Assembly (NCBI GenBank): GCA_000961575.1
Contig: LADP01000005.1
Location: 1 to 64,000, forward strand
Direction of reading: 5' to 3'
Origin: Peptococcaceae bacterium BRH_c8a
Lineage (GTDB): Bacteria > Bacillota > Desulfotomaculia > Desulfotomaculales > Desulfallaceae
DNA: 64,000 nt
Made by a program: the position numbers and the translations under genes. The notes beneath the pieces are model-generated. The model saw nothing but the letters and a program-made list of their open reading frames with translations. It was not told the origin of the DNA and did not search any database. Of the stretch, positions 14,242-59,457 are shown in pieces; position 1 is the stretch's first letter, and each line of letters opens with the position of its first letter.

Positions 14242-15096
14242 GTGTCCGGATCTGTGTTTGAAAGCGGACAGATGCACAGGCTTGCTGTAATTTTCCTGTC
14301 GGTAAACCTGCTCATGTTAATCGGAACGAGGGCTTTAAATTATTACAACAACCAGACCAACCTGATGGACCTGCTACTTTCCTCGGCCATAGGCATTAAT
14401 TTCTTTATGGCTCTGGTTTTTTATAGTTGGTTATTGCGTTTTCAGGGCTTTTACACCGAATCACAGACTCAAATAAACAGCCTCCGTTACATGGAAGAAG
14501 CTTTAGACACCATGCGTGGCGAGCGGCATGAATTTATTAATCATCTCCGGGCAATGCAAGGCCTAATAGCAGAAGGAAAGGGCCAAGAGGCCACCGGTTA
14601 CCTTAAAAACGTAGAATCCAGCACGCTTGCCAATGGTCAGCTTTTGAATGTCAATAATCCTTATCTGCGCTCGCTGTTAAAAAATAAAAAACAAGCCCTG
14701 CTGGGGCAGGGGATAGAGCTTACCATCAGCATTAAAAGTAATCTGGACTTTTTTGATCTCCAACCGGTAGCAATCACCACTATCTTTACCAACCTGCTGG
14801 ATAACGCGGCAGAAGCGGCAAAATTAGCGAATAATGAAGTTAATGAAGTTCGATTTGAGGTTCATGAGTTTGAAAACTACTACTGTTTCTTGGTTATCGA
14901 TTCAGGGCCACCCATTCCTCAAGAAACAGCCAGCCGAATATTCGAAAGCGGTTTTTCAACCAAGGGAGACGACAGGGGTTACGGGTTGCCCCTTGTCAGG
15001 CAAGCCCTGGCGGAGTGCCGGGGTAAAGTTGCCTATGACCCGGATACTAAAACCTTTAACGTAATTATTCCCAAGCAAATGCCAAGGATAGATTAA
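14242..15096 (+). CDS. GHKL sensor histidine kinase (AgrC/CitA-like)
   Basis: This kinase of about 284 residues has two N-terminal membrane segments (MHRLAVIFLSVNLLMLIG and GINFFMALVFYSWLL). It also has a Spo0B-type phosphorylation helix with the acceptor His in GERHEFINHLRAMQGL, and an ATPase domain with the N-box NLLDNAAEAA, VIDSGPPIP and GDDRGYGLPLV. It should phosphorylate the LytTR regulator encoded next. Two GTG starts are possible: GTG 14242 is preferred because AGGTGA lies 5 bases before it, while GTG 14233 is one base after the upstream stop. The tight spacing implies translational coupling to the membrane gene. Confidence 0.88.
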   Translation: MSGSVFESGQMHRLAVIFLSVNLLMLIGTRALNYYNNQTNLMDLLLSSAIGINFFMALVFYSWLLRFQGFYTESQTQINSLRYMEEALDTMRGERHEFINHLRAMQGLIAEGKGQEATGYLKNVESSTLANGQLLNVNNPYLRSLLKNKKQALLGQGIELTISIKSNLDFFDLQPVAITTIFTNLLDNAAEAAKLANNEVNEVRFEVHEFENYYCFLVIDSGPPIPQETASRIFESGFSTKGDDRGYGLPLVRQALAECRGKVAYDPDTKTFNVIIPKQMPRID

Positions 15097-15171
15097 TTAT
15101 CGCTGAAGTCGGTTGTTGCGATGCATATGACTTCGGCTTATTTATTTGTCTTATCAGGGGGGGCGGTCTAT

Positions 15172-15870
15172 GTGAGGGTGTTTGTAGCAGAGGATAATCT
15201 CTCGGAGATGAAACACTTACGGCAACTGCTAGCCGGGGAAGCAGACCTTGATATTGTTGGTGAGGCTTATGACGGGGATAAAGCCCTAAAACTAATTAAT
15301 GAACTTAAGCCCGAAGTGGCATTCCTGGATATAACAATGCCGGGGATATCCGGAATGGAGCTCGCCGGAATGATTGACCAGAGCGTACAGGTAGTTTTTA
15401 TTACGGCCCATCATGATTATGCCATCAATGCGTTTGAGTTAGGGTCCGTTGATTACATATTAAAACCTGTTGACCAAGAAAGGCTTAGTAATACCTTGCA
15501 CCGTATTAGAAGGTCAAAGGCCTGCGCGTTAAATGAAACGCTTACGGTCAGTGTAAAAAACGAAGCCATTATTTTAAATATTAGGGACATAATCTTTATC
15601 GAGAAACAGCAGGGCCATAAACAAATTATCATCTATACCTATGATAATCAATTGTTTGTCAACCTACCCTTAAACAACCTGGAAAGCAGGCTGGCCAGAT
15701 TTGGTTTTGTGCGTACGCACAAAAGTTTCCTGGTCAATATCAATAAGCTGGAAAGGTTACTGCCGTGGGGACACAAATCATACCTGGCTAAACTCAACGG
15801 TACACAAAAGGAAGTTATCATAAGTAGGAAATATGCCCCGGCAGTTAAGGCCTTTATCAATGGCATCTAA
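15172..15870 (+). CDS. LytTR-family response regulator
   Basis: This response regulator is about 232 residues long. The N-terminal receiver has the acidic pair in FVAEDN, the acceptor Asp in VAFLDITMPGISG, the Thr in FITAHHDYA and the Lys in YILKPVDQ. The C-terminal LytTR DNA-binding domain runs from LTVSVKNEAIILNIRDIIFI to the end (FVRTHKSFLVNINKLERL). It acts in the cytoplasm and binds paired direct repeats upstream of target promoters. GTG 15172 is taken as the start because a run of G's lies 8 bases before it and the protein then begins directly with the receiver strand. ATG 15121 in the same frame would add 17 unrelated residues. Confidence 0.9.
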   Translation: MRVFVAEDNLSEMKHLRQLLAGEADLDIVGEAYDGDKALKLINELKPEVAFLDITMPGISGMELAGMIDQSVQVVFITAHHDYAINAFELGSVDYILKPVDQERLSNTLHRIRRSKACALNETLTVSVKNEAIILNIRDIIFIEKQQGHKQIIIYTYDNQLFVNLPLNNLESRLARFGFVRTHKSFLVNINKLERLLPWGHKSYLAKLNGTQKEVIISRKYAPAVKAFINGI

Positions 15871-44055: not shown

Positions 44056-47000
44056 ATGAATATCATCGCAAGCGCAAAAAAAGTCTTGTTTGCCATAACC
44101 TCTATTTTGTTGGTTTTTGCTATCTGCTTGGCAGTAATAGAATTTACCGATACAAACACCAAATTTTCATCCCTTTCGCCCCGGAATGGAACCTTGGATC
44201 TATCGGAGTGGAATTCTGAAAAGGATGGGCTTTTAAACCTAAGTGGGGAATGGGATTTTTATTGGCATATTTTTTTAAGTTACGATAATCTAAGGGATTT
44301 AGACCCGGGAGCAGATGTCAAGGCCAAGGTACCCTCAGTTTGGAATAAATACCAAATCGATGATCATAGTCTCCCTGGTTTTGGCTATGCCACCTATCGG
44401 CTAAAGATAACAAACGCCCAAACTGATACCCCTATAACCTTCCGTATCCCCACCATGTCCACCGCTTACAGCATGTATGTTAATGAAAAACTGGTCGCAT
44501 CCAATGGAGTGGCGGCAACAAATAAAGAGCATTTCCGACCGGAATACAAACCAAGGAACGTTTCGATATTACCACCCGCATCACAATTCGACATAATCGT
44601 TCAGGTATCCAATTTCATTTATGCCCGCGGGGGTATGTGGTACCCCATAAACATGGGTACCCCGGAGCAAATGCAAGAGTTTAATAAGCACATTGTTTAC
44701 AGGGATATATTTTTATTTAGCAGTTGTTTTATCCTGGGGCTGTATTATTTAAGTATTTTCATGTTACGGCGTGAAGACAAAAGCAGCCTGTATTTTGTCT
44801 TTATGTGCCTTATCGTTATGGGGAGGACTGTTATTCACGGGGATTACGCCGTTTACACGTTGATTCCTTTCGTAAGTTTTGGCGCTATTGTCTTGATCAA
44901 CTACATAACTTTAGCTTGGTTTCCCACAACCTTTGCACTGCTATTAAATGAATTGTTTCCAAAAGAGATGCCTAAAAAGATGGTTCGGGTCACAGTTATT
45001 TACTCATTGGCGATGACACTGATTACATTACTTGCACCTCTCCACTTCTACACAAATTATACATATATATTCCTGGCTTTGGCCATACTGATAGCTTTAT
45101 ATACATTGGTGGTTACCGGCATTGCTTTTATTAAAAGGAGGCAGAATTCGTCTATTGTATTGCTGGGCGCCCTAGCCATGATAGCGGGTGCTGTCTACGA
45201 TATATTGTGTTATTACCGGGTGATTGCCCACAACGTAGGGGAGTTATCCAGTTTCGGTTTCGTTGTATTTCTATTTTTACAATCCTTCGTACTGGCCAGG
45301 CGGTTTGCCCAGGCCTTTACAAGTATAAATGACTTGTCCCGGCGGTTACTGGAAATGGACAAGACTAAAGACGAGTTTTTGGCCAACACATCACATGAAC
45401 TGCGCACACCCCTAAACGGCATACTGGGCATAACCGAGGCGATGCTGCGTGGCAGTGAGGGTAACCTTAATGAAGGGCAGCGGCAGAGCCTTTCCATGAT
45501 TGCACTTAGCAGCAGGAGGTTGGCCAACCTGGTCAATGACATTCTTGATCATTCCAGACTAAAGCACAGTGACCTAAAGCTTAATCTTAAGCCTCTTAGT
45601 ATAAAGGGTATTGTTGAAACTACAAGCCATGTATTTCGCCAGCTGAATGACCCGACAAAGATAAAAATAAACTGTGTTATATCTAATGATCTCCCACCTG
45701 TCTTAGCTGATGAAAACCGGCTGGCTCAAATTATGTATAACCTAATCGGCAATGCGGTCAAATTTACAACTCAGGGAGATATTAAGGTTACAGCAAGGGA
45801 AGCCGGAGAAATGCTGGAGGTCTGTGTGGAGGATACGGGCCAGGGTATCCCCAAAGAAAAGCTTACGGACATATTCAAGTCCTTTGAACAGGTGGATGCC
45901 TCAATTACCCGCAAGCACGGCGGTACGGGGCTGGGGCTTTCCATAACCAAACAACTGGTGGAATCTCATGGAGGCAGGATTTGGGTCAAATCTACCCCGG
46001 GAAAAGGAGCAAAATTTTATTTTACCTTGCCTATCACCAGGTCGCAGTCTGATGAAAATGATACTAACCTGCCGGTGCTGTATGAGCTAGCCGCCGGCCT
46101 GGATAAAAGAACCGGAAGTTTCAGGTCAACTAGCACGGGTGCTCATATTTTAATTGTTGATGATGAGATTTTAAACATGCAATCTGCCGCTGCCATCCTT
46201 AAAACGGGTGGATACTCTACCACGGCGGTGGCCAGCGGACCGGCCGCCCTGGATGAAATACGCAACAATAAGGACATTTCCCTGGTCATATTGGATGTGA
46301 TGATGCCGGAAATGTCAGGTTATGAGGTATGCCGTCGCATAAGGCAAGACAAGACCCATTACGACTTACCAGTGCTGATGCTGACCGCTAAAACAAGAAC
46401 TGAGGATATTGTGATGGGCTTTGAAGCCGGGGCTAATGATTATCTGCCCAAACCGGTTGAGGTAGCAGAACTCCTGGCCCGGGTTAAGACCTTGGTAAAC
46501 CTGAAGACTGCGGTGGATAAGGCCAGGGCGGCGGAAGTGGCTTTTTTGCAGGCGCAGATTAAACCGCACTTCTTGTTCAATGTCTTAAACACAATATCCT
46601 ACTTCTGCGATACCGACCCTGAAAAGGCCGGAGCGCTTATTAACGAGCTGGCTAATTATCTGAGACAGAGCTTTGATTTCAAAAATTTGGATATGTTTGT
46701 CCCCCTTGATAAAGAGATCAATCTGGTTAAGTCGTATTTGGAGATAGAAAAGGCCCGGTTTGGCGAGGAAATGACGGTAGCATTTAATATTGCTCAGAAC
46801 ATACATACAGACATTCCGCCACTGTCCATTCAGCCTCTGGTGGAGAACGCCATTCGGCACGGTCTGAGAAAAAAAAGCGGCCGGGGCACCGTTAGCATAT
46901 CCGTCCAGCTGGCTCCGGAAGGAGCAACGGTAACTGTAAGCGACAACGGGCGGGGTATCCCCGCCGACCGCTTGGACAAGCTTTTGGGGCCGAATAACTC

Positions 47001-47151
47001 AAGCGGTGTGGGGCTGCGCAATATCCATGCCCGGCTAAACAGGTTATATGGGAAGGGCCTGTCCATAAGCAGCGAGGCAGAGAAAGGAACGGTTATTTCA
47101 TTTACCATACCCCTGGGAGGTGTTTTACTTGATCCGGGCCATAATAGTTGA
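44056..47151 (+). CDS. Hybrid sensor with two histidine kinase modules
   Basis: This is a 1031-residue protein. An N-terminal membrane anchor is followed by an external beta-sandwich (about 50-200, with LSGEWDFYW and GFGYATYRLKI as in 7TMR-DISM sensors) and a seven-helix membrane domain (about 210-405). Then come HisKA (TSHELRTPLNGILG, His about 447), HATPase (NLIGNAVKF, DTGQGIP, GGTGLGLSI) and a receiver (LIVDDE, acceptor in LVILDVMMPEMSG about 746, YLPKPVE). Last is a second, LytS-type kinase (QIKPHFLFNVLNTISYF about 835, LSIQPLVENAIRHGLRK, GVGLRNIHARLNRLYG). The second kinase probably phosphorylates the response regulator encoded next, which overlaps it by 23 bases. Signal unknown. Confidence 0.92.
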   Translation: MNIIASAKKVLFAITSILLVFAICLAVIEFTDTNTKFSSLSPRNGTLDLSEWNSEKDGLLNLSGEWDFYWHIFLSYDNLRDLDPGADVKAKVPSVWNKYQIDDHSLPGFGYATYRLKITNAQTDTPITFRIPTMSTAYSMYVNEKLVASNGVAATNKEHFRPEYKPRNVSILPPASQFDIIVQVSNFIYARGGMWYPINMGTPEQMQEFNKHIVYRDIFLFSSCFILGLYYLSIFMLRREDKSSLYFVFMCLIVMGRTVIHGDYAVYTLIPFVSFGAIVLINYITLAWFPTTFALLLNELFPKEMPKKMVRVTVIYSLAMTLITLLAPLHFYTNYTYIFLALAILIALYTLVVTGIAFIKRRQNSSIVLLGALAMIAGAVYDILCYYRVIAHNVGELSSFGFVVFLFLQSFVLARRFAQAFTSINDLSRRLLEMDKTKDEFLANTSHELRTPLNGILGITEAMLRGSEGNLNEGQRQSLSMIALSSRRLANLVNDILDHSRLKHSDLKLNLKPLSIKGIVETTSHVFRQLNDPTKIKINCVISNDLPPVLADENRLAQIMYNLIGNAVKFTTQGDIKVTAREAGEMLEVCVEDTGQGIPKEKLTDIFKSFEQVDASITRKHGGTGLGLSITKQLVESHGGRIWVKSTPGKGAKFYFTLPITRSQSDENDTNLPVLYELAAGLDKRTGSFRSTSTGAHILIVDDEILNMQSAAAILKTGGYSTTAVASGPAALDEIRNNKDISLVILDVMMPEMSGYEVCRRIRQDKTHYDLPVLMLTAKTRTEDIVMGFEAGANDYLPKPVEVAELLARVKTLVNLKTAVDKARAAEVAFLQAQIKPHFLFNVLNTISYFCDTDPEKAGALINELANYLRQSFDFKNLDMFVPLDKEINLVKSYLEIEKARFGEEMTVAFNIAQNIHTDIPPLSIQPLVENAIRHGLRKKSGRGTVSISVQLAPEGATVTVSDNGRGIPADRLDKLLGPNNSSGVGLRNIHARLNRLYGKGLSISSEAEKGTVISFTIPLGGVLLDPGHNS

Positions 47152-48217
47152 TGATGAGCGTCCTTCGGTGGATAAAATGGGTAAATTGCTCGGAGACAGC
47201 GGGGTAGTGGATATTAAGGGCAAGTTCTTAAATCCGTTGGATGCATTGGAATTTGTTAAAAAAGTGAAAATAGACACAGCTTTTATTGATATTGAAATGC
47301 CGGAGATGGATGGATTCCAGCTGGCAAACCGTGTTTTTGCTCTCCAGGAGTGGACGGCGGTTGTGTTTGTGACGGCTTATAATGAATATGCCGTCGAGGC
47401 ATTTCGGATTAATGCCCTGGACTATCTTTTAAAACCGGTGGATAAAAAACGTTTAAATGAGACCTTGGAGCGGATCAGACAGGAAAAAAATATTAACATT
47501 AACCAGTCCCGGATGCAGGTGCGCTGTTTTGGTAAATTCAAGGTCATTGCCGGATCCGGCGAAGTTAAATTCCGCACCAGCAAGGCCGAGGAACTGCTGG
47601 CCTATCTTATTGACGGCCGGGGTGCGGAGATCAGCCGCGACGAAATAATTGACCGCCTGTGGCCGGATTATGAAGGAGATAGGGCCGTGGCCCATTTTAA
47701 CACCACGCTGTACAATGTGCGGAAGGCGTTACAGCAAAACGGCATTCAGGCATCCATCAAACACTCCAGGGGTTGTTACTGTCTTGAAGCCGCCTCCATC
47801 GACTGTGACTACCACCGGTTTTTATCTTTAACGGCTGCGCCGACGGCGATCAATGTTCTAACTATTTCCGATTATGAAGCGCTAGCCGCTCTTTATACCG
47901 GTGATTATCTGGAAAGCAATCAATTCCAGTGGTCACAGAGGAGCAGGATGCAGCTCAAGGAAAAATATGTGCAGCTGGTTTTAGATATGGCGGAATACTA
48001 CAAAGCCGTCGGTGAACAAGACCGGGCAGCGGAGCTATTAAAAACCGGCCTGAAACATGAGCCGCTGCACACGGATTTAAACTACAGGTTGGTTGAAACA
48101 TTAATGGTAGCGAAAAAACGTATTGCCGCGGTAAAATACTATAATGCATACAGACGGGAATTAAAAAATGAACTTGGCCTTGAGCCTGATGTGAAATTAA
48201 GAAAACTGATGGCGTAA
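47129..48217 (+). CDS. Response regulator with SARP/BTAD-type output
   Basis: This regulator is about 362 residues long. The receiver has VDDERP, the acceptor Asp in TAFIDIEMPEMDG, Thr in VFVTAYNEYA and Lys in YLLKPVDKKRL. The output begins with an OmpR-like winged helix (VRCFGKFKVIAGSGEVKFRT ... EISRDEIIDRLWPDYEGD ... LYNVRKALQQNGI). It continues with a BTAD/tetratricopeptide-type helical domain (YTGDYLESNQFQWSQRSRMQ and so on), as in SARP activators and Bacillus/clostridial LytT-SARP fusions. The start is TTG 47129, with GGGAGG 8 bases before it. SARP proteins bind heptamer direct repeats 11 bp apart close to the -10 box, exactly the arrangement found at 48338 and 53319. Confidence 0.92.
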   Translation: MIRAIIVDDERPSVDKMGKLLGDSGVVDIKGKFLNPLDALEFVKKVKIDTAFIDIEMPEMDGFQLANRVFALQEWTAVVFVTAYNEYAVEAFRINALDYLLKPVDKKRLNETLERIRQEKNININQSRMQVRCFGKFKVIAGSGEVKFRTSKAEELLAYLIDGRGAEISRDEIIDRLWPDYEGDRAVAHFNTTLYNVRKALQQNGIQASIKHSRGCYCLEAASIDCDYHRFLSLTAAPTAINVLTISDYEALAALYTGDYLESNQFQWSQRSRMQLKEKYVQLVLDMAEYYKAVGEQDRAAELLKTGLKHEPLHTDLNYRLVETLMVAKKRIAAVKYYNAYRRELKNELGLEPDVKLRKLMA

Positions 48218-48247
48218 AATGAATACTATAAGGATTTTATAACAATG

Positions 48248-48277
48248 ACCGTTCGGGTAAACCGGGCGGTTTTTTTA
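48248..48277 (+). terminator. Rho-independent terminator
   Basis: ACCGttCGG and CCGggCGGT arms followed by a run of T's, 30 bases after the response-regulator stop. It separates the regulatory operon from the downstream target genes. Confidence 0.8.
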
Positions 48278-48337
48278 TATTTCTTATTCAAAGTCCCTTA
48301 TCCGGCCTCATCTTTAACCATCTTGAAATAACGAACC

Positions 48338-48370
48338 GTTTAGTCGTGGTTTAGTGAGCCGTTTTACAAT
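48338..48370 (+). promoter_or_regulatory. SARP-type promoter: tandem GTTTAGT heptamers and -10 box
   Basis: GTTTAGT occurs at 48338-48344 and 48349-48355, an 11-bp period, and TACAAT (48365-48370) lies 9 bases after the second copy. No normal -35 box is present, as expected for promoters activated by SARP proteins. The same arrangement is repeated at 53319-53351. Confidence 0.7.
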
Positions 48371-48400
48371 ACTGGCAAAAGAATGAAAAGGGATGACCTG

Positions 48401-48790
48401 ATGTACAATGTGGCGCTTATAGACAACGACATCAAGTGCCTTGAATATATGTCCCGCCTGCTGGAGGGAAACGAACATATAACTTCGTTGACGTGCTTCC
48501 AACAGAGGGATGGTTATTTGGAAGAGCTGCAAAAAGGAAACATCCACATTGCATTTATCCGGTTGGGCAGTCCGGGACTGCACGGTTTTTCCCTGGCTAA
48601 GGCAACCCGGAAGGTATCACCGGTCACCAGGATTGTTTTTTTAGCCAGTGCTGATAGCCACGCGGTTATTGCCTTTGAGGAACGGGCCAGCGGTTATTTG
48701 GTTCTACCTGTGAAACAAAAGAGACTGGATGAGGTGGTTGAGAACATTATGAAGCGTGATTTATGGAGGCGGGGTGGTTTACCGGAGTAA
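48401..48790 (+). CDS. Pseudo-receiver domain protein
   Basis: This stand-alone receiver-like protein of about 129 residues resembles the receiver of the response regulator encoded just upstream (AVIAFEERASGYLVLPVKQKRL against AVEAFRINALDYLLKPVDKKRL). Its phosphorylation chemistry is gone: the acceptor Asp is Arg54 (IAFIRLGSPGLHG), the Thr position is Ala82 (VFLASAD), and the Lys of KP is Leu102. It may bind the active regulator or kinase, or sense something other than phosphate. ATG 48401 has AAAAGGGA 7 bases before it; ATG 48383 in frame is less well placed. It is probably cotranscribed with the giant surface gene that begins 77 bases later. Confidence 0.82.
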   Translation: MYNVALIDNDIKCLEYMSRLLEGNEHITSLTCFQQRDGYLEELQKGNIHIAFIRLGSPGLHGFSLAKATRKVSPVTRIVFLASADSHAVIAFEERASGYLVLPVKQKRLDEVVENIMKRDLWRRGGLPE

Positions 48791-48867
48791 TACCCGAGTC
48801 GGAAGTTCGAAACCATGACTTAAGGAACTAAGATATTAATGAAAATTAATTTATAAGGAGCGGAAAA

Positions 48868-51800
48868 ATGCGTAAAATATTGGTTTTGCTATTGACAATT
48901 GGGCTCATATTTACCTTTACAACAATTCCTGTACTTGCAAGTGATGATGAACTTATCGAAATTGATCTTACAAGCGTTATTGAAGACGCTTATGGAGATG
49001 GGTACAGTTATGTAGATGGATTACTGACGATTACGGGCGAAGGGCCTTTCCTCATCACAACTTCCGCCAGCGTCAGCGGGAGGGGCGTTGTGGTGGATAA
49101 TACGGCGGGTACAACGGTCGCGATCACCCTTGAAAATGTCAGTATCAGCAACACAAGCAACAATGCTTGCGCCTTTGCACTGGCAGTCGGTGCTCAGGCA
49201 GTAATTACCCTCAATGGCTCCAACGCGCTGGCCAGCGGTCAGTCTCGGGCGGGGCTTGAAGTCCCCGACGGTGCGGAAGTTTTAATCACAGGGACAGCTG
49301 CCGGTGAACTAACGGCAATTGGCGGACAATATGCAGCGGGCATAGGTGGCGGCAATGGGCAAAACGGTGGTGTGATCAATATTTCCAACGTAGAAATAAT
49401 TGCGCGCGGCGGGTCAAGGGGCGCCGGTATCGGCAGCGGATACAAAACCGGCACCAGCGGCAGCAGCGGGGGTACTATAACGATCACGGATTGCGTAGTT
49501 GACGCCAGTTCGGTCGAATATGGCGCGGGTATCGGCGGCGGCTATATGTCTTCGGGTGGCGTAATCACGATTACCGACAGTACCATCTCAGCAGCCGCGG
49601 GCAATTACGGCGCGGGGATCGGCGGTGGATCATCCGGTGCCAGCGGAGCAATTAGTATAACTGACTCCCGGGTGGATGCCACAGGTGGCGCAGGTGGCGG
49701 AGCGGGCATCGGCGGCGGTGACGAAGGCCTTGGGTACAGCATAAGTATCTCCGGCGCAAATTCGGTTATTAATGCGCAGGGCGGCAGCTACGCTGCGGGG
49801 ATTGGCGGCGGTGACGGCGGCAACGGGTCCAGCATTGACGGCAGGATTACCTTAGCAGGCGGCATAGTTACAGCAACGGGCGGCACAAGTGGTGCAGGCA
49901 TCGGTGGCGGTCAAGCCGGTAACGGCGGCATCATTCACGTTACGGGCGGTAGGGTTTTTGCCACAGGTACAAATGGGGGCGCAGGTATTGGCGGGGGCCG
50001 TTATAACGGCACGGGCGGCGTGGGCGGTAGCGTACTGATTACTGAAGCTTCCGTTACAGCCACCGGTACGGCCGGTGCCATGGATATTGGCGCAGGTTTG
50101 AACGGTTCCGGCAACGGCACGCTACGGGTAGGTCTAGATAGCGGGTACGTTTACGATTCCTTTAAAACACGCGGATTATTGACCCTTAATGAAGGGGGCG
50201 CCGACCAGGCAAGTACCACCATTGGCACATGCACAATTTCCGGTGCCGGAGCGGGCGATATGGCAGGCACTTATATAGAAGGAGTCAAGACAGCGTTAAC
50301 CTTTATAGACTTGACTACCGTCGGCATGGGCGGTGACGGGTACTCCTTTTCAGGAGGTGTACTGACCATAACCGGCGAGGGCCCCTTTATCATTAATAGC
50401 TCTGAATCAACAAACAATCGAGTTCTCGTTGACACGCCGGGGGACATGGTAGCCCAAATCACGATTGAGGATCTTGACATTTCCAACACCGCAACCAGCG
50501 CCTGCGCTTTTGCCCTTGCCGGTTCATCCAGGGTTGAGCTGACACTTTCCGGCACCAACACTCTTGTAAGCGGGCAGAATCGCGCGGGTTTAGAGGTGCC
50601 TGCCGGTACGGAAATCACCATCATTGGTTCATCTGTTGACGAACTGACTGCCACAGGCGGCAAGTATGCTGCCGGCATCGGCGGCGGATATAGCGTCACG
50701 TCGGCCGTTGCCGGCACGATAACAATAAAAGGCGGCACAATTGTTGCCCAAGGCGACGGCACGGTGGACGGCACAGGTGCCGGTGCCGGTATCGGCGGTG
50801 GCCGTGGCGGCTCCGGCGGCACAATTAACATAGAAGGCGGCGACATCACGGCAACCGGCGGTTACCGGGCTGCGGGCATCGGCGGCGGTCAGGGCGGCAC
50901 AAGTGGTATTATTCTGATCAAAGGCGGCGTAATAACCGCATTGGGCACTAACTATAGTGCCGGTATTGGTGGCGGCACCGGCCGGCCTGCGGACAGCATT
51001 ACCATTGAAGGGGGCACAATCCATGCAACGGGTGTCGGCGGAGGCGCGGGCATCGGCGGTGGACGTGTTGATCAAGATCTTGCTTCCACTCATACAGGGG
51101 GCACGATCCATATCTCCGGAGGCAACATAACAGCCGTATCTCAAGGACAGGGTTCAGGTATCGGCAGCGGTTTGGTCATAAACATTAATTGGGAGCTTCC
51201 GGCAACAATAACCATTACAGGAGGTTATATTGACGCACAAAGCTACAGCGGTCCGGGCATCGGCAGCCACGAGGGCACTATCAATATTTCAGGGGGAACG
51301 GTCAATGCCGAAAGCGATAACTATTCAGCTGGTATTGGCGGGGGGTACAGAAAAGGCGGCGGTACCATCAACATCTCAGGTGGAACTATCACAGCAACGG
51401 GCGCAGCCAGTTACGGTGGTGCAGGTATCGGCGGCGGTCATCCCCATGACAATGACGCCCTAAACGGCGGAACAATCAGTATCTCGGGCGGCGAGATTAC
51501 TGCCATGGGCGGGGAATACAGCGCGGGCATCGGTGGCGGGTATGCGGGCGATGCCGGTACAATCACCATTACGGGCGGCGACATCACGGCTTCCGGCACC
51601 AACGGTGGCGCAGGTGTCGGCGGCGGCCTAATGGGCAGTGCCGGTTCGATTACCATTACCGGCGGCAGGATTACGGCTGCCGGCACTGAAACCGGTGCGG
51701 GGATCGGTAAAGGTCATGGCGGCGGCGATGGTGCCATCGTTATCTCCCAGTCCCGGGTAATCGCTTCAGCCCAAAATGGGAATGACGTCATCAGCGCGGG

Positions 51801-53115
51801 CAGCGGCGGAACGATTTACATCGGCTTCACGGGCGGTTCCGTTTCTCCCTCTTATGACCCTGTCGACACGCGTGCGGAGGTCACCCTTGCCAATGGCGGT
51901 ATTAATGAAGCCAACACAACCTTCGGTACCTGTTTGATCGACGGAGCGGGAGCTGGCGATTTGGCGGGGGAATACATCGAAGGGATTAAGCAAGTTGCTA
52001 CTTACACCATAGCCGCCGTTGGCGATCGGGTACTTACAGAGTTGAATGAGGGCTACGGAGCAGACGATAGACAGGTACTTTCCATTACCATTGAGAATAC
52101 CGGTACCGGCGCCCTTACTAATCTGTTTGTGGCCCTTGGCGGAGACGGCGCAGACAGTTTCACCGTCAGCCAGCCCGAATCGGCGGCACTGAACCAAATC
52201 GGGGATACGACCACCTTTGCGTTAAGACCGCAAACAGGGCGCACCGCAGGCACTTATACGGCGACGGTGACTATTTCAGCTGATAATATGACTGATGTGA
52301 GCTTTACGGTAACCCAAAAAATTAATGTGCCATTGTCCGATGTTTGTACTCTGTCCCAATTGACGGCAACCAATCTCACTTTTACGCCAACCTTTGATAG
52401 TGATACAAACAACTATAATGCCAATGTCGCAAACAGCATCAGCAGCACAATAATAACTGCAGTTCCTTCCGCTAATAATGCTGTTGTCACTATTAACGAC
52501 AGCGAAACCACGAACAAAGAAATAGCACTGCAGACCGGCAGCAATACTATTACCATTGTAGTAACAGCTGAAGACGGGATAAAAAATAAAATTTACACCA
52601 TGATAATCAATAGGGTCGGCAGCAGTTCGTCGGGTGGAACAGGCGGAGGCGGATCACCGGCTCCTGCACCCAAACCGGAGCCCGAGCTGGAACCGGAGGT
52701 CGAAGAGGACGTTAACGTGCCGGCGCTGGAGATCAAGATGAGCATTGGCGAACTGCAGGCCAGCGTGGGCGACACGCCTTACACACTTGATGCACCGGCT
52801 TTCATCAAGTCCGATTCGAACCGGACGCTGGTGCCGATCCGCTTCGTCGCCGAGGCCCTGGGTGCCGAGGTGGAGTGGCTGGCGCCAGCCCGGCAGGTCA
52901 TCATCCGACAAACTATTGACAGCCACCAGATGGAAATCGTGCTGACACTCGGTTCAGACATCGCCCTTATAAACGGCGAGCCGGTTACCCTGGACTGCCC
53001 GGCGGAAACACGGCCGCCCGGCCGTACCTTCGTACCGCTGCGGTTCGTGAGCGAAACACTGGGGGCACAGGTGGATTGGGATCCGGACAACCAAGAAATT
53101 ACCATCACCAGGTAG
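48868..53115 (+). CDS. Giant secreted Gly-rich repeat protein with stalk domain
   Basis: This is a 1415-residue exported protein (signal RKILVLLLTIGLIFTFTTIP, cleavage near VLA-SDD). Two homologous halves of about 475-575 residues each open with DGYSYVDGLLTITGEGPF or DGYSFSGGVLTITGEGPF. Each then gives a series of 20-30-residue units with ITITGGxITATG and AGIGGG turns, about 20 in all, consistent with a right-handed beta-helix. Each ends in GAGAGDxAGxYIEGxK. Then follow an Ig/CARDB-like segment (about 1050-1150), a cadherin-like domain (LTFTPTFDSDTNNYNANVAN), a Pro/Glu linker, and a copper-amine-oxidase-type stalk domain (LVPIRFVAEALGAEVEWL, FVPLRFVSETLGAQVDWD). AAGGAGCGG precedes the ATG. 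The role is probably cell-surface binding or structure. Confidence 0.88.
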   Translation: MRKILVLLLTIGLIFTFTTIPVLASDDELIEIDLTSVIEDAYGDGYSYVDGLLTITGEGPFLITTSASVSGRGVVVDNTAGTTVAITLENVSISNTSNNACAFALAVGAQAVITLNGSNALASGQSRAGLEVPDGAEVLITGTAAGELTAIGGQYAAGIGGGNGQNGGVINISNVEIIARGGSRGAGIGSGYKTGTSGSSGGTITITDCVVDASSVEYGAGIGGGYMSSGGVITITDSTISAAAGNYGAGIGGGSSGASGAISITDSRVDATGGAGGGAGIGGGDEGLGYSISISGANSVINAQGGSYAAGIGGGDGGNGSSIDGRITLAGGIVTATGGTSGAGIGGGQAGNGGIIHVTGGRVFATGTNGGAGIGGGRYNGTGGVGGSVLITEASVTATGTAGAMDIGAGLNGSGNGTLRVGLDSGYVYDSFKTRGLLTLNEGGADQASTTIGTCTISGAGAGDMAGTYIEGVKTALTFIDLTTVGMGGDGYSFSGGVLTITGEGPFIINSSESTNNRVLVDTPGDMVAQITIEDLDISNTATSACAFALAGSSRVELTLSGTNTLVSGQNRAGLEVPAGTEITIIGSSVDELTATGGKYAAGIGGGYSVTSAVAGTITIKGGTIVAQGDGTVDGTGAGAGIGGGRGGSGGTINIEGGDITATGGYRAAGIGGGQGGTSGIILIKGGVITALGTNYSAGIGGGTGRPADSITIEGGTIHATGVGGGAGIGGGRVDQDLASTHTGGTIHISGGNITAVSQGQGSGIGSGLVININWELPATITITGGYIDAQSYSGPGIGSHEGTINISGGTVNAESDNYSAGIGGGYRKGGGTINISGGTITATGAASYGGAGIGGGHPHDNDALNGGTISISGGEITAMGGEYSAGIGGGYAGDAGTITITGGDITASGTNGGAGVGGGLMGSAGSITITGGRITAAGTETGAGIGKGHGGGDGAIVISQSRVIASAQNGNDVISAGSGGTIYIGFTGGSVSPSYDPVDTRAEVTLANGGINEANTTFGTCLIDGAGAGDLAGEYIEGIKQVATYTIAAVGDRVLTELNEGYGADDRQVLSITIENTGTGALTNLFVALGGDGADSFTVSQPESAALNQIGDTTTFALRPQTGRTAGTYTATVTISADNMTDVSFTVTQKINVPLSDVCTLSQLTATNLTFTPTFDSDTNNYNANVANSISSTIITAVPSANNAVVTINDSETTNKEIALQTGSNTITIVVTAEDGIKNKIYTMIINRVGSSSSGGTGGGGSPAPAPKPEPELEPEVEEDVNVPALEIKMSIGELQASVGDTPYTLDAPAFIKSDSNRTLVPIRFVAEALGAEVEWLAPARQVIIRQTIDSHQMEIVLTLGSDIALINGEPVTLDCPAETRPPGRTFVPLRFVSETLGAQVDWDPDNQEITITR

Positions 53116-53156
53116 ATGTCACGCGGCTCATCGAACATTTAATCACTGAAAGCATT

Positions 53157-53187
53157 GCCGCCCGGTTAAAACCGGGCGGTTTATTTG
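53157..53187 (+). terminator. Rho-independent terminator
   Basis: CCGCCCGGTT / AACCGGGCGG stem with a very short loop followed by TTTATTTG, 42 bases after the stop at 53115. Confidence 0.85.
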
Positions 53188-53318
53188 TTGTTAGGTATAC
53201 TTGGCTTTTCATTTTTGAGAATAAATACCGTGCAAAAAGATTGGTGTTTCAACCTAAAAATCGTTGTTACTTATAAGAGCTTTATCAGGCCGGTTCACAA
53301 GTATCTACGGCAACACTT

Positions 53319-53351
53319 GTTTAGTCGTGGTTTAGTGAGCTGCTATACAAT
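53319..53351 (+). promoter_or_regulatory. Second SARP-type promoter, upstream of the SLH gene
   Basis: GTTTAGT at 53319-53325 and 53330-53336 (11-bp period) with TACAAT at 53346-53351, again 9 bases after the second heptamer. The 22 bases covering both heptamers are identical to 48338-48359. It should drive the SLH/GLUG protein gene starting at 53542. Confidence 0.7.
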
Positions 53352-53541
53352 ACAAGCAAAAGGATGAAAGGAATGGCCTGAAGTGTTAAGCGTCGCTCAA
53401 AGACAATGACAACGAGTAATTTGCTGTCGAAAGCGAGGTGATTTGTCAAAATATCATCTAAAATTTTTGGATTTTATCATCAAAGCAATGAATTTATTGG
53501 GACAGCAAATTGAACAAACATAAATGGGAGGGTGATTCATC
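53352..53541 (+). pseudogene. Leader with decayed 5' end of a pseudo-receiver gene copy
   Basis: Bases 53352-53440 still align with 48371-48455. The matching parts are AAGCAAAAGGATGAAAGGAATGGCCTGAAG against GCAAAAGAATGAAAAGGGATGACCTGATG, then AAAGACAATGACAACGAG against ATAGACAACGACATCAAG, the DND codons of the pseudo-receiver. The start codon is lost and the frame is broken. It indicates that the promoter plus gene 5' end was duplicated together, leaving this long untranslated leader. The last 20 bases hold GGGAGGGTGA, the ribosome site of the next gene. Confidence 0.65.
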
Positions 53542-56500
53542 TTGAAGTTTGGCTTGAGAAATAAAAATTTATCACTGGCTTTAACAATTATTTTTCTTTG
53601 CTCCATAGTATTGGGCACACTACCCATCCAACCGGCCTGGGCCCAGTTTGCGGACATCAAGGGCAGCTGGGCGGAAAAGCAGATTAACGACTGGGCGGAC
53701 AGGGGCCTGGCCGGCGGCTACTCCGACGGCACCTTCCAGCCGGATAACCAAATCACCCGGGCCGAATTTGTGGCTTTAACCAACCGGGCCTTCGGCAAGC
53801 AGGACGAAACGGCCCGGGCGGACTTCAAGGATGTCAGGGAGTCCGACTGGTTTTACGCCGAAGCTGCGGTGGCCAAAGCCGAAGGCTACTGCACGGGCTA
53901 CACCGACGGCACTTTCCGGCCATTGAACCCCGTCACCAGACAGGAAGTGGCCTCTATAGTATCCAGGCTGCTTGACCTTGACGCCGGCACGGCGGTTAAA
54001 GCCTTCGCCGACGCCGGGGCCATTGCCCCCTGGGCCCGGGATGCGGTGAACGCGGTGGCCGCCGCCGGCATCATGAGCGGTTATACCGATGGTAATTTTA
54101 AGGGTACTAACCACATCACCCGGGCCGAGGCCGTGGTTACCCTGGACCGGTCTATGGGGCACACGGCCCCTGCTCCGGCCCCTTCTCCCGCGTCCGGAAT
54201 TACGGGCAGCGTTATACTGAACGGTAAGGCGGCTGCGGGCGCCGTTGTGCTGCTCTTTGCTGAAAACGGCACCGAACCCATCGGGGAGACTACCTCGGAC
54301 AAAGAAGGTAAATACACGTTCCGGGTGGACGCCGGAAACTACGACATCACCGCTGCCAAGGACAAATACGTGGCTTACGTCGCCGGAGTGTCTTTTGCCG
54401 GCGATGGTACGATTCAGGATCTGGCCCTGGCCGAAGGTACGCTGATCAATGGGCGGCTGGTGGACGAAAACGGCAGTGCCGTAAAAAACGCCAAACTGTT
54501 CTTTACCACCAACCCCACCTTCTTAACCACCACGGGCAGTGCCGGGGATTTCTCGGTTTACGTGCCGGGCGGCAAGAAGTATACGCTGCGCGGTTACAAG
54601 AACAACAAGCCGGCCTCCGGACTGGAAATTTTGGCGGACGATATTGAAGCCGGGAATAGGGGCACCCAATCCATCGGCCGAATCAGCACATCTTACGCCC
54701 TGAGAACGTCATCCGGAGGTGGCGGTGGTGGTTCCAGTGCCCCCGGGGCTTATACCCTGACACTGTCTGCAAATCCCCCGGCGGGCGGAACTGTAACAGA
54801 CAATACCAACGCCGGCCCATACACTGCCGGCTCGGTGATCAGCTTAACGGCGGCGGCCAGCGTTGGTTATCAATTTGTGAACTGGACCGCGGGCGACATC
54901 AAAGTCAGCTCTGATGCCACCTTTGACTACATCATGCCGGCGGCCGATACGAGCCTGGTGGGCAATTTTGCCCCGGAAACACCAACTGATTTTGCCGGCG
55001 GTTCGGGTACGGAAAGTGACCCCTACCAAGTGGCCACTGCCGGCCAGCTGAATAAGGTGCGCAATTATCTTGATCGAAATTTTGTTCAGACAGCCGATAT
55101 TGAACTGGGTGCGGCACCCTGGCACGAGGGGCAGGGCTGGTTGCCCATCGGGGACAGCGACAATCCCTTCACCGGCGGCTATAATGGCGACGGTTACTCA
55201 ATAACCGAACTTTTTATCGACCGTAATACGGAACACACCGGTCTTTTCGGATATCTTGAGGAAGGCGCACAAATAGCGGGCGTCAATGTAGAAAACGCGC
55301 AGGTTAATGGCGGGGATTACACCGGTATATTGTTTGGCTACGCGGAAAAAGCCGTCATCATAGCATGTAATGTGCAGGGTTCGGTTGCAGGCGGGTATTG
55401 GGTGGCCGGCGTACTGGCGGGGGGAATTGAAAACTGCGAGATTAGAGGCTGCGGTTCCCAGGGTGACGTTTCCGCCTACTACTATGCCGGCGGTCTTGTG
55501 GGAACCGCTGAAGAGTCTTCAATTATTAAAATGAGTTACTCAACCGCCGACGTCACCGATGGTAGAAGAATCGGCGGCCTGGTAGGTAACTTATCTTATT
55601 CGCATGTGGAAGGTTGCCTGGCTTCAGGCAACGTGGCGGGTGTTGAAAGCGGCGGTGGACTGGTGCACTGCCTGGGCGGCAGTAGTTCTGTCAAATCCAG
55701 TTATGCATTGGGTAATGTTACGGTTGCCGGAAATCAGGCAGGTGGTCTGGCGGCGGAAATGTGGGGCGACTCCTATGTTACCACGAGTTACGCCATGGGA
55801 GACGTTTCCGGACAATCAGGTATCGGTGGTATTGTGGGTAATCCGTCATCTGGAGACATAAGCCACTCCATCGGGCATAACTTTCGAATTGATACCACCA
55901 ACGGTTCCATGTCCATTAGCAGGGTCGCGGGCAATAAAAGTGATGCCTACAACCTGTTCCAAAACAACCATGGTTATGAAAATATGAAAGTATCCGGCAT
56001 TCCAGTTAGTAGTAATGATTCAACCTCACGAAACGGTTGTGATTTTTTAGGATTCCATGAAATACAGGCAGCCGAAATTAGAGACCCCGCACCTTTCGAG
56101 GCCTGGGATTTTGATGCCCTGGATGCGGATAACAACGGTATTTACTGGCACTGGGATGATGAAATCAGCAGACCTGTTCTCTACGTTGATTCCGAAGGAA
56201 ACGACAGCTATATCAGACTGGGTAACGATACCAAGTTAATCGAACCTGTAGATGATGATATTCCATCGGATTTTGCTGGTGGTGACGGTTCCGTAGACAA
56301 CCCCTATCAAATAGCTACTGCGCAGCAGTTGGAGAAGGTAAGAGATTATCTTGACAAGCATTTTATCCAGGTGGCGGATATTGACCTGGGTGTAGCACCC
56401 TGGAATGAGGGAGAAGGTTGGGAACCCATTGGGACTTCTGATAACAAATTTAGTGGGTCGTTCGATGGTGACGGTTACAAGATTACGAATTTAACTATGA

Positions 56501-59457
56501 ATTACTTTTCCGGTGAAGGATATGGATTGTTTGGAGCAGCTGGTTCTGGTGCATCATTTGAGAATTGTGCCGTATTCAAGAATATAGCCCTGGAAGACGT
56601 TAATATTACAGCTAATTTGCGGGTGGGCAGTTTGCTCGGGATGAGTAGGGCTCCCGCCGTAGTTATCGACAACTGTTATGCCACCGGTAGTATTACTGCC
56701 AACATAGCTGATGCCGGTGGCTTGGTGGGTTCCAGTCAGGGCGTTATAAGCAATAGTTACGCCGATGTAACAATCAATGGCAGTGCCATAACATCAGGGG
56801 GGCTGGTCGGTCAAAACAGTGGAAATGTTACCAACTGTTATGCCTTGGGAAATGTAACCGGCACAGAGGATCTTGGCGGTTTAATCGGGTTCAATGGCGG
56901 AAACATTGCCAACAGCTATAGTACCGGTAATGTAACAGGTACTATTTTTGTTGGGGGAGTGGCCGGTATCGGCCATGGTATTATTAATCAGTGTTTCAGC
57001 AGCGGAAGCGTTAATGGTGCCCAGTATATAGGTGGCTTAGTTGGAGGAGGCAGTGCCAACGTCAATGATAGCTATGCAACCGGAAGTGTGACCGGTTCCA
57101 GTAATGTGGGTGGTTTGTTCGGCTTACTTGAAAATGGTAGTGTAAACAATAGTTTTGCCACGGGGGAAGTTACCGGCAGTGGTGGTGGTTTAATCGGAAG
57201 CGTATCCAGTGCTACGTGCAGCAACAGCTATTACGATACCGAGACCACCGGTAAATGGGATAACTTCGGCAAAGGAATACCGAAAACAACCGCGGAGATG
57301 GTGGACCAAAATACTTTTACTGATTGGGACTTCAACACCATCTGGGCCATTGATAACGACCCGGCATCTTACCCGTACCTGAAGTGGCAAAATGAAGAGC
57401 ATATCACCTACCCGCCTTCTGTTTTCGCCGGCGGGTTTGGCACGGTGGACGACCCCTATGAAGTGGCGACAGCCGAACAGCTGAACAAAGTGAGAGATTA
57501 TCCCGGCAAACATTTTATTCAAACTGCAAACATCGACTTGACTGGTTATCTCGGGGTGGATGGACCCGAGTACAATGACGGGGCGGGCTGGAGGCAGATT
57601 GGGAATAGATATACATCGTTCAATGGGACTTTCAACGGTAATGATTATGTAATTTCAAACCTGTTTATCAATCGTCCCGACGATGATTACCAGGGATTAT
57701 TCGGCTGTACGGGAAATGATGCTGAATTGACCGGTATGGCCCTGGATAGTTTAGACGTCACGGGTTACAGTTATGTTGGGGGCCTTGTGGGTCAGAACAA
57801 CGGCCACATTGAAGACTGCTACACAACCGGTACAGTGACAGGGACGTATACACAAATAGGCGGCCTCGTGGGCTACAATTATGCTTATAGTGGTGCTGTG
57901 GGAAGCATCATCAACAGTCATAGTTCAGCGGATGTAACCGGTCATGAGGAAGCCGGAGGCCTGGTGGGGTACAACAGCGGAGGACTAATTTCGGGATGTC
58001 ACGCTTCGGGCGATGTGATGGGTGTTAAATATGACGATGATGAATCCGAACAGGTTGGTGGTCTGGTAGGTGATTCAGGGGGACGGATAGAAGACAGCTA
58101 CGCATCGGGTAAAGTTTCAGGATATGAAGACGTAGGCGGGCTTGCCGGTTCAAGCGGCAGTGAAATTGATGACTGTTATGCCACCGGAATTGTATCAGGA
58201 ACTAATGAAGTAGGTGGGTTGGTTGGATATAACAGCAGCGCAATCGACGACTGCCATGCATCGGGAAATGTTTCAGGTGTATATCAAGTAGGTGGTCTGG
58301 TTGGTAATAGCTACGGAAATATAACAAATTCTTACGCCATTGGCCACGTTGAAGGCTACGAATACCTGGGTGGACTGATTGGTTATTCAGCCGGTGGAAA
58401 AATACAAGCTTCTTTTGCCGCGGGTAATGTAACCATGAAAAGTGGTGTGGAAGATGCTGTTGGTGGACTGGCTGGCTCAATTCAAAACACCTTGGTTGAT
58501 GACTGTTATGCCACAGGAAATGTTACCGGCCATGCAGAGGTTGGAGGTCTTGTCGGTTATGTTAGTGTAGAAGCTGAAGTTAACAACTGTTATGCAGTAG
58601 GAAGCGTTACTAAACTTAACACCACAAGTTATAGTTTGGGAGGATTGATTGGAGCAACAACATCACCCACTCAAATAACAATAACAGACAGTTACTATGA
58701 TCAGGAAACAACCGGACAAACGGACAATGGTTTGGGATTACCTAAAACCACGGAGGAAATGAAGCAGCTGTCAACTTATACCGGTTGGGATTTTGCCGGC
58801 ATCTGGGGCATTAACCCCGATGAAAATGACGGTTATCCTTTCCTGCGTTGGCAGGGGTATGAGCACGTTTCTATACCCGTTTTGGATGAAAACTTTGATA
58901 GCTATGCCGTCGGGGGATTCCCATCTATTGACGGATGGGTTTTAATGTACAGCGGCGCGGGTGTCGGCGAGCAGTCTGTAACCGATTATGTATATGTAAG
59001 CGGGGAACAGTCACTTCACCTGAAGGGGGTCTGGAACGAGATTGCCACTGCGTATAAGACCGTTGATATACCGGCCAAAGGTGTTCTGGAAGGTTGGGTG
59101 CGAACCGACGCTGCGGCTGGTTTGCCTGGCGGTGTGGCCCATATCGGACTGGTCAATCCCGACGTTGGAACCGGGGGGACGCGTATAGCTTCGGTTATTT
59201 TCGCTGACGGCAAAATATATGCTAATGATTCCTCCTATGAACTTCAAGTTTTCGAGACTGATACTTGGTACCACGTTGGTATTATTTACGACCTGGACGA
59301 GCGAACAGTCGATTTTTACGTAGACGGAGACAGGCTGGCAGGTAACGTGCCAATTGGTTTAGTAACACCAACTGCGGTTTTCTTATCTGCCGGTAATGGA
59401 GGTACGGCTAACGGCTGGTATGACGACATTATATTGCGTCCAGGAACAGACACGTAG
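53542..59457 (+). CDS. Giant S-layer-type surface protein (SLH, GLUG repeats)
   Basis: This is a 1971-residue exported protein (signal about 1-33, ending QPAWA-QF). Three SLH domains (about 34-205: FADIKGSWAEKQINDWADRG, GYSDGTFQPDNQITRAEF and two more) anchor it to cell-wall polymer. Two carboxypeptidase-regulatory-like beta-sandwiches (about 220-390), a Gly linker and a Listeria/Bacteroides-type repeat (YTLTLSANPPAGGTV) follow. Three blocks begin FAGGxGxxxxPYxxATxxQL (about 480, 910 and 1293) and contain many GLUG motifs (GGLVGxNxGxIxxCYATGxV). A concanavalin-like domain (about 1770-1965) ends it. The start is TTG with GGGAGGGTGA 6 bases before it. It is probably an adhesin or S-layer component controlled by the SARP-type regulator. 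Confidence 0.93.
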   Translation: MKFGLRNKNLSLALTIIFLCSIVLGTLPIQPAWAQFADIKGSWAEKQINDWADRGLAGGYSDGTFQPDNQITRAEFVALTNRAFGKQDETARADFKDVRESDWFYAEAAVAKAEGYCTGYTDGTFRPLNPVTRQEVASIVSRLLDLDAGTAVKAFADAGAIAPWARDAVNAVAAAGIMSGYTDGNFKGTNHITRAEAVVTLDRSMGHTAPAPAPSPASGITGSVILNGKAAAGAVVLLFAENGTEPIGETTSDKEGKYTFRVDAGNYDITAAKDKYVAYVAGVSFAGDGTIQDLALAEGTLINGRLVDENGSAVKNAKLFFTTNPTFLTTTGSAGDFSVYVPGGKKYTLRGYKNNKPASGLEILADDIEAGNRGTQSIGRISTSYALRTSSGGGGGGSSAPGAYTLTLSANPPAGGTVTDNTNAGPYTAGSVISLTAAASVGYQFVNWTAGDIKVSSDATFDYIMPAADTSLVGNFAPETPTDFAGGSGTESDPYQVATAGQLNKVRNYLDRNFVQTADIELGAAPWHEGQGWLPIGDSDNPFTGGYNGDGYSITELFIDRNTEHTGLFGYLEEGAQIAGVNVENAQVNGGDYTGILFGYAEKAVIIACNVQGSVAGGYWVAGVLAGGIENCEIRGCGSQGDVSAYYYAGGLVGTAEESSIIKMSYSTADVTDGRRIGGLVGNLSYSHVEGCLASGNVAGVESGGGLVHCLGGSSSVKSSYALGNVTVAGNQAGGLAAEMWGDSYVTTSYAMGDVSGQSGIGGIVGNPSSGDISHSIGHNFRIDTTNGSMSISRVAGNKSDAYNLFQNNHGYENMKVSGIPVSSNDSTSRNGCDFLGFHEIQAAEIRDPAPFEAWDFDALDADNNGIYWHWDDEISRPVLYVDSEGNDSYIRLGNDTKLIEPVDDDIPSDFAGGDGSVDNPYQIATAQQLEKVRDYLDKHFIQVADIDLGVAPWNEGEGWEPIGTSDNKFSGSFDGDGYKITNLTMNYFSGEGYGLFGAAGSGASFENCAVFKNIALEDVNITANLRVGSLLGMSRAPAVVIDNCYATGSITANIADAGGLVGSSQGVISNSYADVTINGSAITSGGLVGQNSGNVTNCYALGNVTGTEDLGGLIGFNGGNIANSYSTGNVTGTIFVGGVAGIGHGIINQCFSSGSVNGAQYIGGLVGGGSANVNDSYATGSVTGSSNVGGLFGLLENGSVNNSFATGEVTGSGGGLIGSVSSATCSNSYYDTETTGKWDNFGKGIPKTTAEMVDQNTFTDWDFNTIWAIDNDPASYPYLKWQNEEHITYPPSVFAGGFGTVDDPYEVATAEQLNKVRDYPGKHFIQTANIDLTGYLGVDGPEYNDGAGWRQIGNRYTSFNGTFNGNDYVISNLFINRPDDDYQGLFGCTGNDAELTGMALDSLDVTGYSYVGGLVGQNNGHIEDCYTTGTVTGTYTQIGGLVGYNYAYSGAVGSIINSHSSADVTGHEEAGGLVGYNSGGLISGCHASGDVMGVKYDDDESEQVGGLVGDSGGRIEDSYASGKVSGYEDVGGLAGSSGSEIDDCYATGIVSGTNEVGGLVGYNSSAIDDCHASGNVSGVYQVGGLVGNSYGNITNSYAIGHVEGYEYLGGLIGYSAGGKIQASFAAGNVTMKSGVEDAVGGLAGSIQNTLVDDCYATGNVTGHAEVGGLVGYVSVEAEVNNCYAVGSVTKLNTTSYSLGGLIGATTSPTQITITDSYYDQETTGQTDNGLGLPKTTEEMKQLSTYTGWDFAGIWGINPDENDGYPFLRWQGYEHVSIPVLDENFDSYAVGGFPSIDGWVLMYSGAGVGEQSVTDYVYVSGEQSLHLKGVWNEIATAYKTVDIPAKGVLEGWVRTDAAAGLPGGVAHIGLVNPDVGTGGTRIASVIFADGKIYANDSSYELQVFETDTWYHVGIIYDLDERTVDFYVDGDRLAGNVPIGLVTPTAVFLSAGNGGTANGWYDDIILRPGTDT

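Follow-up and report, generated by a model that had tools for sequence, protein, structure and literature searches.

The 64,000-nucleotide stretch analysed here (the window), from contig LADP01000005.1 of Peptococcaceae bacterium BRH_c8a, carries a sensor kinase gene, a regulator gene and two giant surface-protein genes, all on the forward strand. The sensor is a 1031-aa double histidine kinase (44056-47151), in which Pfam recognizes 7TMR-DISM, HisKA, HATPase, a receiver, a LytS-type His_kinase and another HATPase. The regulator (47129-48217), a 362-aa protein starting at a TTG codon behind GGAGGTG, consists by Pfam of a receiver, an OmpR-like winged helix and a BTAD domain. Further downstream lie the first promoter box, a small pseudo-receiver gene (48401-48790) and a 1415-aa exported protein with beta-helix, cadherin-like and Cu-amine-oxidase-N domains (48868-53115), followed by the second box, the remnant of a pseudo-receiver start (53360-53417) and a 1971-aa surface protein with SLH, GLUG and InlB-B-repeat domains (53542-59457).

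The regulator combines the features of a two-component response regulator with those of a SARP activator. Its receiver possesses the phospho-aspartate Asp54, the switch threonine Thr82 and the catalytic lysine Lys102, all invariant among 26 homologues, and a kinase gene lies next to it; in loci L060-L065, the kinase orthologue likewise adjoins the regulator on the upstream side. The BTAD domain scores 52.9 bits, above the Pfam cut-off, while Trans_reg_C scores 24.9 bits, slightly below it, and this order of an OmpR-like winged helix followed by BTAD, together with target promoters carrying direct heptamers at 11 bp, is that of SARP activators. In sequence, the winged helix-BTAD part matches EmbR (3e-5) and AfsR (6e-5). 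The AlphaFold model of the regulator (pLDDT 89.6) matches in fold both EmbR and AfsR in its transcription complex, with TM values by target of up to 0.74, the value reached by AfsR, and of the solved structures EmbR fits the DNA-binding/BTAD part best. EmbR of Mycobacterium tuberculosis, which is alike in this part, has a C-terminal FHA domain and receives Ser/Thr-kinase input, whereas the protein described here has an N-terminal receiver. The classical small SARPs differ from it as well, since it bears a receiver with Asp54 and its targets are surface proteins instead of an antibiotic cluster.

Two copies of a 22-base block, GTTTAGTCGTGGTTTAGTGAGC, are present in the window, identical down to the CGTG spacer. 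Box 1 (48338-48359) contains GTTTAGT at 48338-48344 and 48349-48355, and Box 2 (53319-53340) contains it at 53319-53325 and 53330-53336, both with an 11-bp period on the forward strand; GTTTAGT-N4-GTTTAGT has no other exact match in the window. Five bases separate each block from a TACAAT element on the same strand (48365-48370 and 53346-53351), placing nine bases between the second heptamer and the -10 box, as the original prediction had described. Its reading that both promoters lack a -35 box also holds: a search for a TTGACA-like hexamer 16-19 bp before each -10 element yielded at best 3/6 matches, and a consensus promoter scan called no promoter at either box. A terminator-like hairpin on the forward strand (48247-48271 and 53157-53180) precedes each box, one with 10 pairs and a T-run between the regulator and Box 1 (whole element 48247-48278; -16.2 kcal/mol, z -3.8) and one before Box 2 (whole element 53157-53188; -18.8 kcal/mol, z -4.2), so that each box opens a new transcription unit. 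A poor or missing -35 and a distance of about 8 bp to the -10 box are typical of SARP promoters, the distance here being one base longer than canonical at all four sites of the genome described below. The AfsR box consists of two 11-bp repeats centred at -29.5 and overlapping the -35 region, leaving 8 bp between the 3' repeat and the -10 box (PMC10936776), and PimR requires two heptamers with four-base spacers, which it binds cooperatively (PMC5930380). If transcription starts 7-8 bases after TACAAT, as predicted near 48377 and 53358, the centre of the present box falls at about -28.5 to -29.5.

The genome (4,174,027 bases in 48 contigs) was scanned by patterns with reversed controls. Exact GTTTAGT-N4-GTTTAGT occurs in four copies, all with the spacer CGTG and N9-TACAAT, whereas an estimate from base composition gives about 0.04 copies of the heptamer pair by chance even without the -10 box. 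The two copies outside the window lie at C3:5369 (reverse strand) and C23:1843 (forward strand). Allowing one or two mismatches in the pattern including the -10 box added no further copies, and the reversed control gave 0; the bare heptamer pair at one or two mismatches gave 35 matches against 43 in the reversed control, which is background, and was dropped. The genome-wide motif search envisaged in the original prediction thus returns four sites alone, each heading a cassette of the same type, in which a giant exported protein follows a pseudo-receiver gene or what remains of one. Outside the window, the giants are a 1310-aa SLH/GLUG protein, paralogous to the 1971-aa one, and a 1678-aa protein with beta-helix, S-layer SbsC-like, Ig and carbohydrate-binding domains. 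The closed circuit that had been predicted, leading from the sensor through the regulator to giant surface proteins, remains the likely arrangement on sequence grounds, with two amendments: it would comprise four targets instead of two, and an arginine pseudo-receiver or its remnant, not a giant, comes directly behind each box. No box was found upstream of the kinase, leaving self-activation of the regulator operon unsupported.

The distribution of the box across genomes follows that of the regulator. Within the order, an alignment of seven regulator orthologues was searched over 113 genomes, seven of which carry a close orthologue (over 540 bits); strict box patterns were found in 6/7 of these and in 0/106 of the others. 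In a phylum sample of 398 genomes, the box at up to one mismatch was present in 5/5 genomes with a close orthologue and in 1/393 others (Fisher 7e-11), the lone match among the latter being T-rich and holding one mismatch. When both searches are combined, the box is present in 11/11 genomes that carry a close orthologue (with two mismatches in G012), and in most of them it is situated between regulator and target cassette. G012 has another order: its cassette is found upstream of the kinase, and there too the box immediately precedes the pseudo-receiver, so it stays with the target where gene order differs. Additional boxes precede other giant surface proteins in G044, G207 and G042. Two one-mismatch matches, in G132 and G142, have no SARP nearby and were taken as chance, and Formimonas (L097), which has a related regulator, shows no visible box of this type within its 19-kb locus.

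These distributions bear on whether the boxes might be bound by another regulator, of the OmpR type or BTAD-containing, with the neighbouring SARP there by coincidence. OmpR-family regulators also use tandem direct repeats, and the genome does encode one other BTAD protein, a 793-aa protein of winged helix-BTAD-TPR-like architecture (G000:C36:101240-103618). None of the other 10 box-bearing genomes encodes an orthologue of that protein, and the box is confined to genomes with the neighbouring regulator, apart from the one-mismatch match in 1/393. A second alternative holds that the boxes are alike merely through recent duplication of a promoter and pseudo-receiver cassette, the repeat being under no functional constraint. 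The two window copies are indeed paralogous, their likeness continuing for about 60 bp beyond the -10 box into the pseudo-receiver start, and their near-identity is partly due to recent duplication. At 14 sites drawn from eight genomes, conservation averages 94% over the first 20 positions of the box and is 94% for the -10 box, compared with 41-45% in the 100 bp of upstream flank, which argues for constraint on the repeat itself.

The geometry of the box extends well beyond the GTTTAGT family. Receiver-SARP loci were gathered in two sets, 51 from named genomes and order-level searches and a separate 51 from the phylum sample, excluding proteins more than 90% identical to the first set, and the 400 nt downstream of each regulator were searched, at periods 7 to 24, for directly repeated heptamers, identical in both copies but free in sequence, with a -10 box behind them. 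Exact repeats with a period of 11 were found at 11 and 9 loci in the two sets (20/102), against 0 and 1 for all other periods together; with one mismatch allowed, period 11 rose to 20 and 18 loci, every other period reaching at most 3. These loci are kin to varying degrees, so that the counts are not fully independent, although at least eight different heptamers are involved, falling into groups such as GTTTAGT, GTTAAGT, TGGGAGA, GGTGAAA, TGTAAGA, GTTCAGA, ATTTAGG and GGTAAGA. Behind 479 other ORFs of the same loci, five exact period-11 matches occurred, of which at least two are second boxes of the same regulon. Approximately 60% of the receiver-SARP genes have no 11-bp repeat, up to one mismatch, within 400 nt downstream.

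Across these boxes the distance to the -10 box is mostly 9 or 10, and the geometry is constant, the heptamer changing from one regulator subfamily to the next. G044 alone possesses three receiver-SARPs, whose boxes are of the GTTTAGT, GTTAAGT and TGGGAGA types. The fact that different receiver-SARP subfamilies bring different heptamers in one geometry speaks against another regulator acting at the boxes, which we consider highly unlikely. Unrelated heptamers that retain the 11-bp and 9-10-bp layout are hard to reconcile with duplication alone, an explanation to which we give almost no credence. Closely related regulators resemble one another in their heptamers (Mantel r 0.36-0.44), a covariation that could be explained by descent alone. 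The overall correlation between heptamer and recognition helix is r = 0.38, and after controlling for receiver divergence the Mantel analysis detected no helix-specific signal; a recognition code is accordingly not claimed.

Taken with the homology to AfsR and EmbR, these observations make it very probable that the two-component regulator activates four transcription units of this genome through paired boxes in the SARP/AfsR mode. The kinase would sense an external cue and phosphorylate the receiver of the 362-aa regulator, two molecules of which would dock next to each other on the same DNA face at GTTTAGT-N4-GTTTAGT, in the place normally occupied by the -35 box. There, the bound regulator would hold RNA polymerase on TACAAT, replacing the -35 contact as AfsR does at afsS. 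The four units would thereby be switched on, each beginning with the pseudo-receiver gene, intact in two and decayed in two, and continuing with a giant exported surface protein. We infer the direction of regulation, activation, by analogy and from the missing -35. The regulator might instead be a repressor or a dual regulator that blocks the promoter until the kinase signals, as a site overlapping the -35 region would allow. Such a role is improbable, since there is no -35 box to block and both position and spacing agree with SARP activation as seen in the AfsR structure (PMC10936776).

The reading frame of the pseudo-receiver is open from 48383, and translation probably starts at 48401: it is with this MYN/MFN methionine, preceded by a ribosome site of the AAGGG type, that every orthologue starts. 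In the window copy, arginine replaces the phospho-aspartate and the catalytic lysine is lost, and the AlphaFold model (pLDDT 90.6) displays a complete (beta-alpha)5 receiver fold. Among the receivers of the genome, that of the regulator is its closest relative (30% identity), ranking directly after its own paralogue. Copies are intact at two of the four sites (64% identical to each other) and truncated at C23, and the remnant before the 1971-aa protein, which aligns to 48379-48437, has no open frame. Among 20 receiver-like first genes behind SARP boxes, the phospho-aspartate position is occupied by arginine in 16, by lysine in one and by glutamate in one, the catalytic lysine being replaced in every arginine and lysine case. 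WhiI, CmrT and FrzS likewise have a receiver fold without the phospho-aspartate; the proteins described here differ in being free-standing, in this preference for arginine and in always being the first gene behind the box. Free-standing arginine pseudo-receivers in this position were seen in several Bacillota lineages (the window, L111, L232, L085, L089, L086, L203 and L167).

The pseudo-receiver may plausibly exert feedback by forming heterodimers or by competing for the kinase, as has been proposed for other pseudo-receivers (PMC12632262). Just one or two copies stay intact while the cassettes multiply, which suggests that the pseudo-receiver acts in trans. A bolder proposal, which we offer tentatively and rate as somewhat short of probable, is that receiver-SARPs are phylum-wide surface-coat switches of Bacillota, in which the induced arginine pseudo-receiver is a dedicated feedback partner of the regulator receiver or the kinase and sets gain or memory, one copy serving all cassettes so that the others decay. 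The arginine pseudo-receiver is a conserved and obligate-looking partner.

The mechanism itself is the known SARP one; what is new is the fusion to a receiver, the range of taxa, the regulons of surface proteins and the arginine pseudo-receiver. The Streptomyces SARPs ActII-ORF4, AfsR and PimR share the winged helix and BTAD, direct heptamers at 11 bp in the -35 position and a local regulon. They differ from the present regulators, which are fused to a receiver, paired with a kinase and found in non-actinobacterial hosts, target surface proteins in place of antibiotic genes, have a spacing of 9-10 instead of 8, and use their own heptamers (GTTTAGT, GTTAAGT, TGGGAGA, TGTAAGA, GTTCAGA and others). 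Response regulators of the PhoP/OmpR type in Streptomyces also join a receiver to an OmpR-like winged helix that acts on tandem direct repeats; these lack BTAD, whereas the sites described here lie at the -35 position with a fixed spacing to the -10 box. No description of receiver-SARP regulators in Firmicutes, or of their targets, was found in the open PubMed Central papers searched.

Receiver-SARP regulators are common in Bacillota genomes. The rule derived here (a heptamer repeated after 4 bp, then 9-10 bp to a -10 box, in most cases directly behind the regulator gene) permits a predicted binding site and regulon to be read from sequence alone. It links the activation mechanism of antibiotic producers with the way in which S-layer-type proteins, adhesins and matrix genes are controlled. 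The gene directly behind a receiver-SARP box usually encodes either a receiver-like protein or an exported giant, and the giants across loci carry SLH, GLUG, beta-helix, fn3, Big and cadherin-like domains.

Several individual loci add to the range of neighbouring genes. In the non-pathogen Bacillus mojavensis, a receiver-SARP gene and an 11-bp repeat with one mismatch are followed by the gene of a 2000-aa SpaA/collagen-binding LPXTG adhesin (L104:10395-16397). In G191 (L264:15113-15628), a 171-aa DUF6166 protein takes the place of a surface protein behind the box. Small toxin-antitoxin-like gene pairs of the Phd/RelE type lie between the regulator or the cassettes and the boxes in genus g66 (L064:9153-9470; L262:1358-1931 and 15060-15642; L263:6885-7488). 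In G097 (L166:5450-6890), the genes behind a TGGGAGA-type box encode a signal peptidase S26 and small exported proteins, TasA-like by eye, which suggests matrix control in this genome.
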